The notes under the pieces are model-generated. The model saw only the letters and a list, made by a program, of their open reading frames with translations, was not told the origin of the DNA and did no database searches. A stretch of 64,000 nucleotides of DNA, taken from Burkholderiaceae bacterium (GTDB taxonomy: Bacteria > Pseudomonadota > Gammaproteobacteria > Burkholderiales > Burkholderiaceae_F). Below are positions 2,872-62,162 of this stretch, piece by piece. How positions within the stretch are numbered: position 1 is the first letter of the stretch; every line of letters begins with the position of its first letter. Both the position numbers and the translations under genes were made by a program. The stretch covers positions 1-64,000 of the forward strand of contig JAFAIM010000026.1 of NCBI GenBank assembly GCA_019236735.1, in the 5' to 3' direction.

Positions 2872-2875
<4 letters not shown>

Positions 2876-3543
2876 TGCTCTTGCAGCACGTCCGCTCCCT
2901 TGGGAGGTTCAAAGCGGAATCGTGACGGGTCGATTCGAGGATTGCGCTGCAAGCCCGAAAATCGCAGCTGTGTTACGTGGCCGAAACTGTCGACCAGCTC
3001 CATCCGAACCGGAAGAGCGCCTTGAAAGCCGATCCGGATCCGCTCGAACGAGGAGTCCTGGGAGCGCGGCTTGGCCGCGATCCAGTCGACGCCGTCCTGC
3101 TCGCCGTCGCTGGTCACCTGGAAGTCTCTTTCGAGATCGTTGGAGCCGAAAAGAATCGACGCGGGCGAGGCCGGAATGGCCCCCTTTAATTTCTTGACCG
3201 TGACCTGGTTCAGTTCCGGGTCATAGACGTACAGGCTGGAGCCGTCGCTGACGATCGTCTGCTGATACGGTTCGGCGTAGACCCATCGGAAGCGTCCGGG
3301 GCGCGAGAATTCGAACGAACCTCGGCTTGTCTGTGACGCCTGCTTGCCCGCAGCCTCGGTCGTCTGCGAAAAGTCTCCGCGGGCGCTGCCGGTCTGCGCG
3401 ACGAACTGCCGCAACTGCTCCAACGAATCGGCGCGCGCCGCGAGTGAGGCGACGGTCAGCAGCAATGCAAGCGCCCCCGCCTTCGCCGTACCGGCTACGG
3501 CGGGCCTGCCCGCCGAAGCGCCGAAGGCGCGAAGGCGGGTCAC
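2872..3543 (-). CDS. lolA: Outer-membrane lipoprotein carrier protein LolA
   Basis: LolA is the periplasmic chaperone that takes lipoproteins from LolCDE to LolB. The mature part, from about residue 39 ([10 protein letters not shown]), is a normal LolA with GDFSQ, the RPGRFRW motif and a [12 protein letters not shown] strand. The start is GTG at 3543, which overlaps the ftsK stop codon (GTGA). The first ~26 residues ([20 protein letters not shown]...) are encoded by two palindromic repeat units at 3476-3539. The positively charged n-region of the signal peptide is therefore made from repeat DNA. The hydrophobic core is [16 protein letters not shown] later TTG start inside the core would leave no n-region. 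The gene lies between ftsK and rarA, overlapping both by 4 nt. Confidence 0.94.
3476..3539. repeat. Two palindromic repeat units at the start of lolA
   Basis: Two imperfect palindromes lie side by side. The one at 3476-3504 opens with CCCGCC and closes with GGCGGG. The one at 3509-3539 also opens with CCCGCC and closes with GGCGGG, with GAAGCG and GCGAA inside. Related elements occur at 24290-24322, 43228-43258 and 59235-59326. Both units here are translated as the LolA N-terminus. They resemble REP-type extragenic palindromes; membership in a named family was not tested. Confidence 0.75.
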
Positions 3544-58201: not shown

Positions 58202-58207
58202 TATAAT
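58202..58207 (+). promoter_or_regulatory. TATAAT box upstream of ribF
   Basis: A perfect TATAAT lies 48 bp before ATG 58255. Its position overlaps a possible TTG start at 58207, arguing that ATG 58255 is the true start. No clear -35 is seen at 16-18 bp. Confidence 0.45.
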
Positions 58208-58254
58208 TGCCGGTCACCTTTTGGGGCGTACCGCTTTGCCCGACAATGCCGACG

Positions 58255-59190
58255 ATGCACGTTTTCCACGGGCTGCCAGGCATCGCCGAACGGCACCCCT
58301 GCGCGCTGTCGATCGGCAATTTCGACGGCGTGCATCGGGGTCACCGAGCGCTGCTGCAACGCGTCGTCGAAGCGGCCCGCGAGAACGGCGCAACGGCCGC
58401 CGCGATGACGTTCGAGCCGCATCCGCGCGAGTTCTTCGCTCCCGAGCAGGCGCCGGCGCGCATCGCGAACCTTCGGGACAAGATCGGGGGTTTGCGGCAG
58501 GTAGGGATCGAGCGTGTGTTCGTGCAGCACTTTAACCGCGACTTCGCATCTCTGAGCCCTGAGCAGTTCATCCAGCGAATCCTCGTCGAGGGCTGCCAGG
58601 CGCGTGCGCTGGTGGTCGGCGATGATTTTCGCTTCGGTGCACGGCGCGCGGGCGACGTTGCGTTGCTGCGCAGCTTCGGCGCGAGCTGCGGCTTCCGTGT
58701 GGAACAGATCGAGCAGGTCCAGTGGAACGGCGAACGGGTCTCGAGTTCGCGCATTCGCGGCGCGCTGAGCGCTGGGAATCTGCTGCTGGCCTCCGAGCTG
58801 CTCGGGCATGCCTATTCAATCAGCGGTCGCGTTCTGCACGGCTCCAAGCTCGGCCGTCAGCTCGGATTTCCAACGTTGAATCTGCGCGTGGCACACCGCC
58901 GCCCGGCGCTGAACGGCATTTACGCAGTGCTGGTGCATGGGATCCGGTCGAGATCGCTGCCGGGGGTAGCAAGTGTGGGGTTGCGCCCCACAATCGACGA
59001 CAGCGGCCGGTGGCTGCTCGAAGTCCACCTGTTCGACTTCTCCGAGGATATCTACGGCCAACTTATTCGCGTGCAGTTCGTGCAGAAACTGCGCGACGAG
59101 GAGCGCTTTGACACGGTGCAGGAACTCGCCGCCGCAATCCGGCGCGACGCCGATCGGGCACGCGCCATCTTCGACGGGGCGACAGCGTGA
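58255..59190 (+). CDS. ribF: Bifunctional riboflavin kinase/FAD synthetase
   Basis: RibF makes FMN and FAD. The 311-residue protein has an FAD synthetase domain with [13 protein letters not shown] near the start, the [19 protein letters not shown] stretch and [12 protein letters not shown]. The riboflavin kinase domain follows, with [14 protein letters not shown] and [12 protein letters not shown] 58255 fits the normal length; frames upstream (TTG 58207) overlap a TATAAT promoter. GTG of ileS overlaps its stop. Confidence 0.96.
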
Positions 59191-62162
59191 ACGACGGGCA
59201 GCGCAAAGCGAAGGGGCGCCAACCCTCCGACTCGCCCGCCGAAGCGCGAAGCGCGAAGGCGGGAGCCGCTCAAGGAGCGAAGGAGGGCCGCCAGCCCTCC
59301 GAAGCTGCGTCAGGAGCGAAGGAGGGTTACCCGCTGAATCTGCCGCAGACACCGTTTCCGATGCGCGCCGACCTTCCCAAGCGCGAGCCGCAATGGGTAA
59401 AGGAATGGGAGGAGCGCAAGGTGTACGCCGCGATCCGGGCGGCACGCAAGGGTGCGCCGCGCTTCATCCTGCACGACGGTCCACCTTACGCCAATGGCGA
59501 CATTCATCTCGGAACCGCAGTCAACAAGATCCTGAAGGATATCGTCGTCAAGTCCAAGTCCTTGGCGGGCTTCGATGCCGTGTACGTGCCCGGCTGGGAC
59601 TGCCACGGCATGCCGATCGAGATCCACATCGAGAAGCAGTTCGGCAAGGACCTGCCGCGCGCGGAAGTGCAAGCGCGCGCACGTGCGCATGCGACCGCGC
59701 AGATCGCGGTGCAGATGAAGAGCTTCCAGCGCCTCGGTGTACTCGGCGATTGGGGCAACCCGTATCGGACGATGACGTTCAAGGCCGAAGCCGACGAGAT
59801 CCGTACGCTCGGCCGGATGATCGAGCGCGGGTTCGTCTACCGGGGCCTGCGGCCCGTCAACTGGTGTTTCGACTGCGCCTCGGCACTCGCCGAGGCGGAA
59901 GTCGAGTATGCCGATCGAACCTCACCGGCCATCGACGTTGCCTTTGCCCTGGCCGATGACGCGCGCGCTAGGGTGGCTGCCGCTTTCGGCGTAGCCGCGC
60001 TCGTCGGGCCTGTGTTCACGGTCATCTGGACGACGACTCCATGGACGATCCCGGCCAATCAAGCGTTGAACTTCCATCCCGAGATCGACTACGCGCTGGT
60101 GGACTGCGGCGACCGTCGCTTGATCCTGGCCGAACCCCTGGTCGAGCAGTGCCTGAAGCGCTACGGGCTGCGCGGGCGGATCCTGGCTGTGGCGCGCGGT
60201 GCCGCTTTCGAAGGAGTCGAGTTTGACCATCCGCTCGGCGGCGCCCATCCCGGCTATCGCCGCCATGCTCCGGTGATGCTCGGCACGTACGTAAGCGCCG
60301 AAGAAGGCACCGGTGTGGTCCACTCGGCACCGGCCTATGGCGTCGACGACTTCGATTCGGCCAAGCGCTACGGGATGAGCGACGAGCAGATCCTGAACCC
60401 GGTGCAGGGCGACGGCGTGTACTCGCCCGACCTGCCCTTGTTCGGCGGCATGAAGATCTGGGACGCGAACCCGAAGATCGTCGATGCGCTGCGCCGGTGC
60501 GGAACCCTCCTTCATGGTACCGAGCTCAAGCACAGCTACCCGCACTGCTGGCGCCACAAGACGCCGCTGATCTACCGGGCCGCGTCGCAGTGGTTCGTCC
60601 GTATGGACGGACCCACTGGCGACACGCGCGGCGTGATGCAAACCGAAACCGTTGGAGAGACGCTGCGGCAGACGGCGCTGCGAGCGGTCGAAGCGACCGC
60701 CTTTTATCCGGCCTGGGGCAAAGCGCGCCTGCACGGGATGATTGCCAACCGCCCCGACTGGTGCATCTCGCGGCAGCGCAACTGGGGGGTACCGCTGCCG
60801 TTTTTCTTGCACCGCGAAACCCAGCAGCTGCACCCGCGCACGCTCGAACTGCTGGAGCAAGCTGCACGGCTGGTCGAAGCCGGCGGAGTGGAGGCGTGGT
60901 CGCGCGCCCGTGTGGAAGATCTGCTTCCTGCTGCAGAGGCGGGCCAATACGAGAAGATCAACGACATCCTGGATGTTTGGTTCGATTCGGGTTCCACCCA
61001 TCGCACGGTGATGCGCGGCTCGCACATTGAGCAGCTCGGCTACCCGGCCGACATGTACCTGGAAGGGTCGGACCAGCATCGCGGCTGGTTTCATTCCTCG
61101 CTGCTGATCGGCGCGGCGATCGACGGGCGCGCCCCTTACCGGGCGCTGCTGACGCACGGCTTCACGGTCGACGCCCAGGGCCGGAAGATGAGCAAGAGTC
61201 TGGGTAACGGCATCGATCCGCAGGATCTGGCGTCCAAGATGGGGGGCGAGATCATCCGCCTGTGGGCCGCAGCGACCGACTACTCGGGCGAGATGTCGAT
61301 CGGCGAGGAGATCCTGAGCCGCGTGGTCGAGGGCTACCGCCGCATCCGCAACACGCTGCGGTTCCTGTTTGCCAACACCAGCGACTTCGATCCGGCGCGC
61401 GATGCCGTGCCGATCGAGCCGATGCTCGAGATCGACCGCTACGCCATCGCGCTCGCTGCGCGCTTCCAGGCCGACACGCTGGCGCACTACGAGCGCTACG
61501 AATTCCACCCGGTGGTGGCGAAGCTGCAGACGTTCTGTTCAGAGGACTTGGGGGCGTTCTACCTCGACATCCTGAAGGACCGGCTGTACACGACCGCTGC
61601 CACCGGTGCAGCGCGCCGCTCCGCGCAGACCGCGCTCTGGCACATTGCGCACAGCGTGCTGCGCTTAATGGCGCCGTTTTTGTCGTTCACTGCGGAGGAG
61701 GCATTTCGGGTGCTTGTGCGCAACGACCAGGCGACGATTTTCACGCAGCTGTACCACGAACTTCCGCCGGTTGCCGGCCACGAGGCTTTGCTCGCCAAGT
61801 GGGCGCGTATCCGCGCGGCGCGGACCGACGTTTTGAAGAGCATCGAAGTCATGCGTGAGTCCGGACGCCTCGGCTCCTCGCTGCAGGCCGAAATCGACGT
61901 GTACGCCGCCGGCGAGCGCCACGCCGCACTGGCCACGCTGGGCGAAGAGCTGCGCTTCGTGACGATCACAAGCCGAGCCACGCTGCACCGCGTCCAGCAG
62001 GAGTCGGAGCAGCGCGTCGAAGTCGCTGCCAGCGCGCACCAGAAGTGCGAACGCTGCTGGCACTACCGGGACGACGTCGGCGTCGACGCGGCTCATCCGA
62101 CCATCTGCGGGCGTTGCGTCAGCAACCTGTTCGGGCCAGGTGAGCTGCGGGGGTTCGCATGA
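59187..62162 (+). CDS. ileS: Isoleucyl-tRNA synthetase with repeat-derived N-terminal extension
   Basis: IleRS charges tRNA-Ile, including the tRNA-Ile(CAT) of this window. The 991-residue protein has HLGT (107-110) in the HIGH motif, KMSKS in [10 protein letters not shown], and a C-terminal zinc site [10 protein letters not shown]...CGRC. The usual N-terminus ([11 protein letters not shown]) begins at residue 50, so there are about 40 residues more than in most IleRS. These are Ala/Gly/Lys/Ser-rich ([16 protein letters not shown]...) and encoded by the repeat units at 59209-59326. The start GTG 59187 overlaps the ribF stop (GTGA). lspA overlaps its own stop. Confidence 0.96.
59209..59326. 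repeat. Palindromic repeat array inside the ileS N-terminus
   Basis: Two full palindromes are visible: 59235-59263 (CCCGCC opening, GGCGGG closing, with GAAGCG and GCGAA inside) and 59295-59326 (CCCTCC opening, GGAGGG closing, with GAAGC and GCGAA inside). Half-copies lie at about 59209-59232 and 59274-59300. The whole array stays in frame. Related units are at 3476-3539, 24290-24322 and 43228-43258. Confidence 0.75.

Follow-up and report, generated by a model that had tools for sequence, protein, structure and literature searches.

Copies of a short REP-like palindrome in the reading frames of ileS and other conserved genes in a Burkholderiales genus

Palindromes that reside in frame within genes are best known from Rickettsia, a group of AT-rich, obligately intracellular bacteria whose Rickettsia palindromic elements (RPEs) were reportedly described by Ogata et al. 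in 2000 and 2002. RPEs are described as palindromic repeats of ∼150 bp that have entered unrelated genes with the frame preserved; close to half of all RPEs lie in ORFs (PMC10969869). Tagged REPs are shorter palindromes of 20–40 bp, often arranged as pairs in opposite orientation, and carry an end motif GTAG or CGTC, with the variants TGTC and CCTC allowed (Di Nocera et al. 2013, PMC3733652). Some GTAG/CGTC REPs are situated within ORFs, including those of tRNA synthetases and repair genes, and flexible linkers or loops have been suggested as the encoded product (PMC3733652). Enterobacterial genomes contain small mobile sequences with ORFs, which form units of 103–168 bp and are likewise found intragenically (PMC2759123).

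The element that concerns us here belongs to a GC-rich genus of the Burkholderiales and was encountered in the window, the whole 64,000-nt stretch of DNA that was analysed, where codons 8–47 of ileS are mostly copies of a palindrome of 29–33 nt. Its consensus is CCCKCC-GAA-GC..GC-GAA-GGMGGG: an outer stem CCCKCC/GGMGGG encloses a symmetric internal loop GAA/GAA, followed by a variable inner stem and loop. As with RPEs, the palindromes are in frame in several unrelated conserved genes, but RPEs are ∼150 bp long, whereas this element spans 29–33 nt, is GC-rich and is harboured by Burkholderiales (PMC10969869). It resembles tagged REPs in being a palindrome of 20–40 bp with many copies and with dimers in opposite orientation; compared by description, it differs from them in being untagged, in its outer stem and GAA/GAA loop, in its 33- or 36-nt unit and in its nested insertion (PMC3733652). 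When exact, unpaired tags were counted at the element ends, GTAG was present 5′ in 1 of 72 copies and 3′ in none, and CGTC 5′ in none and 3′ in 3 of 72. REP and BIME sequences accompanied by a RAYT are similar short hairpins paired in opposite orientation, but here the only Y1 gene found in the source genome has no flanking element. As the tag is absent and no linked RAYT was found, the element is not classed as a member of the tagged REPs. The enterobacterial small mobile sequences share the presence of in-gene repeats with reading frames, but at 103–168 bp and in enterobacteria (PMC2759123). A literature search disclosed no description of this element among titles and abstract openings. Its behaviour is that of RPEs and intragenic REPs; the family itself is new, untagged and built on a 33- or 36-nt unit.

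The palindrome constitutes a dispersed repeat family, present in the source genome and in the one same-genus genome searched (G001). The strict pattern yields 13+7 = 20 matches in the source genome against 0+0 for a reversed-pattern control; after merging of overlaps and of a single copy that appears on two contig ends, 17 distinct copies are left, so the genome-wide count that the first-pass annotation had proposed does reveal a family. G001 contains 32 matches, with none in the reversed control, and the 59 other relatives, out of 61 genomes in all, contain none. A covariance model (R1), built on a 14-sequence alignment of source-genome copies, finds at least 57 matches at E≤1 in the source genome and at least 77 at E≤0.01 in G001, both lower bounds with 150 candidates scored per genome. 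Applied to 187,590 bases from other relatives, covering 36 loci of ileS, der and bipA, the model reaches no more than 14.8 bits (E 0.83). The paired structure is evident from covariation: in the 61 distinct rows of 85 R1 matches, 57 cells are altered on both sides versus 17.5 in shuffles. Pairing extends to 97.9% of cells, compared with 42–61% in slid controls, a difference partly due to the model alignment. Rfam covariance models gave no match at E≤1 in seven ileS loci, that of the source genome included. Outside ileS, the window contains three further copies:

3509..3539, plus strand: element within the N-terminal coding part of lolA (lolA 2872-3543, minus strand)
3476..3504, minus strand: inverted partner of the preceding copy, separated from it by a 4-nt spacer, also in lolA codons
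43228..43258, minus strand: element copy outside called genes, 39.9 bits

The rpoB-rpoC spacer also holds elements in both species, with diverged stems (L169:1455-1529 in the source genome, L154:1308-1372 in G001).

The ileS locus is organized as follows:

58207..59190, plus strand: upstream frame, which we take to be ribF; its TGA stop (59188-59190) is overlapped by the ileS GTG (59187-59189)
59187..62162, plus strand: ileS frame of 991 amino acids with a GTG start; TIGR00392 (ileS) 830.9 bits, cut-off 621.4
59208..59216, plus strand: right-arm element remnant GCGAAGGGG, recognised from its sequence; direct repeat D1
59212..59326, plus strand: tandem duplication with a 39-nt unit; the spacing of unit 1 is 72 nt owing to a 33-nt insertion
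59223..59230, plus strand: left arm CCCTCCGA of an interrupted host element, from sequence comparison
59231..59263, plus strand: 33-nt inserted unit, CTCG plus an intact 29-nt element (59235-59263), read as 10 residues
59264..59287, plus strand: remainder of this host element, comprising its inner stem and right arm
59295..59326, plus strand: second intact element of 32 nt, read as 11 residues, 46.6 bits

The overlap of the GTG with the upstream stop had been noticed from the letters alone and is exact, and the frame runs open from the GTG through the palindromes, as had also been stated. The array had been read as two full and two half palindromes. The two intact copies, at 59235-59263 (49.1 bits with R1) and 59295-59326, stand; the halves are better described otherwise, one being a third element split by the segment 59231-59263 and the other the right-arm remnant at 59208-59216. 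Once 59231-59263 is removed, unit 1 equals unit 2 at 37 of 43 positions. Folding of the whole array only modestly surpasses that of shuffles (DNA z −1.66, 12 of 200 as good; RNA z −1.73, 11 of 200), and the evidence consequently resides in the repeat family and its covariation rather than in folding energy.

Is this stretch part of the protein? The IleRS pattern was held to begin only at residue 50, and the five best-scoring solved IleRS chains indeed align from residue 49 or 50. Between the ileS GTG and codon 59 there is no ATG, GTG or TTG in frame, and residues N51, T55, F57 and P58, together with residue 59, are invariant in 24 aligned sequences, the source included. The absence of an alternative start, coupled with the invariance of residues 51, 55, 57 and 58, indicates that the extension is very probably translated, in agreement with the earlier reading, to judge by the sequence. 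G001 ileS conserves the GTG start, the overlap and the next codons, and 37 residues precede its LNL motif. A close relative with an extension devoid of palindromes would have spoken otherwise; the G001 tail itself carries a family element, in opposite orientation (29.1 bits; E 4.8e-6 for 5,955 bases searched). Alignment with relatives does qualify the original proposal: of 28 other loci, the 27 that could be parsed have a tail of 11–35 residues before LNL if the start is placed at the ATG closest to the core, so that relatives normally possess a tail and only its excess length is repeat-derived. Beyond the first codons the tails of the source and G001 proteins align poorly. An AlphaFold model gives residues 1–50 of IleS a pLDDT of 24–28 and no secondary structure, although the lack of a tail in the other 23 alignment rows lowers the pLDDT there by itself.

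The colonisation of an essential gene without breaking it, as first proposed for ileS, is supported, yet it is a genome-wide phenomenon and not particular to this gene. In-frame copies in the source genome are found in ileS (2), lolA (2), der, trmB, motB and mutL (at a contig start), in the genes for a DctQ-type permease, a C26 peptidase, an APH-family protein, a class III aminotransferase and a molybdenum-cofactor oxidoreductase, in a VWA protein gene (2) and in three pseudopilin-type genes. G001 has them in der, priA (2), kdsB, mobB (2), uup, recG, typA/bipA and the gene for a choline-type binding protein. The matches in sucB and in a gene with an Hpt domain are weak and could be due to chance. 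Among the strict copies, 18 of 45 examined lie in frame in called genes, namely 6 of 17 in the source genome and 12 of 28 (of 32 matches) in G001. The candidates were chosen by codon-score gene calls (one, L220, was excluded before the count as probably false), and since they were found via open frames, 'in frame' holds partly by construction. About 52 of the 64 kb of the window are called coding, which makes copies rarer in genes than chance insertion would give. Four of the 12 strict in-gene copies of G001 (L172, L174, L213, L215) have no NCBIfam match at 1e-8 and are defined by codon score and by the frame being open. Curated family cut-offs are missed by Uup, RecG, two pseudopilins and the choline-type binding protein, and the loci of the first two are truncated. 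N-terminal cases, for instance those in recG and the choline-type binding protein, depend on the start codon chosen, and an N-terminal copy may lie outside the coding region if that choice is wrong.

Where solved structures permit a comparison, the G001 elements coincide with irregularities in the alignment: a 10-residue gap relative to structure 5a9v in BipA, residues 171–201 without counterpart in 4xwi in KdsB, and a break between residues 214 and 232 in PriA. The linker between the GTPase domains contains an element in both Der proteins of the genus, and none was seen in the 20 linkers of other relatives compared. For the intergenic strict copies, 10 of 18 same-strand flanking pairs were compared for signs of a split gene; none had a Pfam family in common, two of the proteins having no Pfam match at all. 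In lolA, the inverted pair at 3476-3539 codes for residues 2–12 and 14–23, ahead of the hydrophobic signal stretch. In the three pseudopilin-type genes (L173, L183, L188), element-coded GASAG directly precedes the prepilin site KGFTL (KGFTLIEL or KGFTLVEL), and because of this position the element peptide would leave with the cleaved leader.

The copies inside genes favour one codon phase: 23 of 29 are in phase 0 and the other six in phase 1, phase 2 being unused (p = 5e-7 versus 1/3), and adding six in-gene copies missed by the pattern gives 26 of 35 in phase 0 (p = 1.5e-6), both values being computed on copies that are not fully independent. Stops are few in five of the six element frames. 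Among 59 copies, phase 2 contains a stop in 18 when read forward and in 1 when read in reverse; the corresponding counts are 2 and 5 for phase 1, and 6 and 0 for phase 0. Stops account for the phase preference only in part.

Element length is narrowly distributed. Out of 72 distinct copies, 48 measure 29 nt and 15 measure 32 nt; 71 fall between 29 and 33 nt, and one has 36 nt. A length of 29 or 32 nt is seen in 27 of 29 in-gene copies and in 63 of 72 copies overall; selection of this length inside genes was therefore rejected as an explanation, and the length belongs to the element itself. The 4 nt just 5′ of the element read C..G in 56 of 72 copies and CTTG in 21. In 23 of 72 an inverted GGNGGG arm adjoins the 4-nt spacer, in some cases with a full inverted partner.

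Copies nested within other copies disclose the inserted unit. Deletion of the 4 nt plus element, with the restored host element scored out of 26 and 72 random joins as control, returned a perfect host in ileS minus 59231-59263 (26/26), and 25/26 in L196 (36 nt removed) and 24/26 in L146 (33 nt). The best random join reached 23, so L151 (33 nt removed, 22/26) does not rise above the control; L163 and L172 scored 21 and 20. In der, a 33-nt gap separates the gene from its G001 ortholog at CCGA^AG, the same position as in ileS; the right arm of the der host has decayed in the source genome, so this host element is recognised only through the ortholog. A 33-nt footprint is seen in both ileS and der. 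Insertion points lie in the internal loop of the host hairpin in ileS, der and L196, and in the apical loop in L146 and L151, and such positions would fit insertion into single-stranded DNA. BipA was rejected as a clean empty site: the source ortholog has a loop 5 residues shorter than that of G001, but loop length varies among relatives.

A single Y1_Tnp gene (PF01797) in the source genome, L145:1414-2142, stands alone and is similar to REP-associated tyrosine transposases (52.5 bits against REP_Tyr_transpos, cut-off 80). The best element match in the surrounding 4.5 kb of this 95% complete genome scores 9.9 bits. G001 also has one PF01797 gene and 26 of the 37 genomes searched have at least one, so that transposase presence does not follow the element. 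With flanks free of the element in the source genome, this gene was rejected as the cognate transposase.

Taken together, we consider it highly likely that copies of a short REP-like hairpin, itself non-autonomous, make up the ileS extension, and that the resulting tail is translated and tolerated. What is observed directly is a repeat family whose arms pair, footprints of 33 nt in ileS and der, a frame that stays open, and copies scattered among conserved genes; translation, tolerance, mobility by transposition and the order of events are inferred. The element would insert as 4 bases plus a palindrome of 29 or 32 nt, giving a unit of 33 or 36 nt, each length being divisible by three. As stops are lacking in most frames of the element, such an event would add 11–12 residues to a disordered tail, linker or surface loop and leave the protein unbroken. 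In ileS, an element may have arrived in an already variable N-terminal tail, a 39-nt stretch would then have been duplicated, and another element would have entered the left internal loop of the element in the first unit. Translation of the tail would begin at the GTG and is probably coupled to termination at the end of the preceding gene. More tentatively, the element might be a frame-neutral mobile unit of 33 or 36 nt that enters loops of its own hairpins, duplicates no target and is a continuing source of linkers, tails and leaders for essential proteins of the genus; this broader proposal is possible, though we would not favour it.

Other explanations deserve scrutiny. The tail could have been taken into service, for instance in tRNA binding or, as a hairpin within the coding mRNA, in tuning ileS translation, an idea to which elements in the ileS tail and der linker of both genus genomes, and element-coded leader-region residues in three pseudopilin-type genes, lend some appeal; the poor alignment of the tail between the two species after the first codons, its modelled lack of structure and the presence of similar peptides in unrelated proteins render it unlikely. 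Alternatively, the palindromes might be untranslated leader or mRNA control elements whose hairpins regulate expression, with IleS starting at an unusual codon (CTG 50 or 52). A conserved hairpin does lie just upstream of ileS in 13 of 23 family genomes, the source genome and G001 being without the exact motif, and many N-terminal intragenic REPs may in fact be extragenic according to Di Nocera et al. 2013 (PMC3733652). Against this, the interval from the GTG to codon 59 offers no ATG, GTG or TTG, a start at 59 would discard residues invariant in 24 sequences, the GTG and following codons are conserved in G001, and internal parts of other proteins hold the same elements in frame, so that we regard a leader as improbable. 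Least credible of all is that chance GC-rich low-complexity coding DNA grew by tandem duplication with no mobile element involved: the 39-nt duplication is real and the folding energy of the array only modestly unusual, but a family dispersed over two genomes, a reversed control of zero and strong covariation already contradict it.

In the reading preferred here, short non-autonomous repeats become coding DNA outside Rickettsia as well, in Burkholderiales that are GC-rich and offer a 33-nt unit with exact footprints. Dispersed repeat DNA apparently serves as protein sequence in the tail of an essential enzyme and in linkers, tails and loops of other gene products. Together with the der ortholog that lacks the second insertion, this makes the entry of selfish DNA into proteins, and the sites at which it is tolerated, amenable to testing, as is a possible selection of element length for frame keeping. 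Gene finders should heed the warning that REP-like DNA can be coding in such genomes.

A separate observation concerns the relatives. A hairpin CCTTG-AAGA-GCCC-GAGG-GGGC-CAAGG stands directly before the ileS ATG, for example at L041:2866-2901 and L011:1506-1541. Of the 23 family genomes searched, 13 have a single exact copy of its core, located at ileS; the source genus has none. Rfam returned no match for it at E≤1 in seven loci. Across 18 of the 23 core-bearing loci, 20 cells are altered on both sides versus 5.4 in shuffles, although pair types are no more numerous than shuffling gives; this hairpin is possibly an ileS leader RNA.
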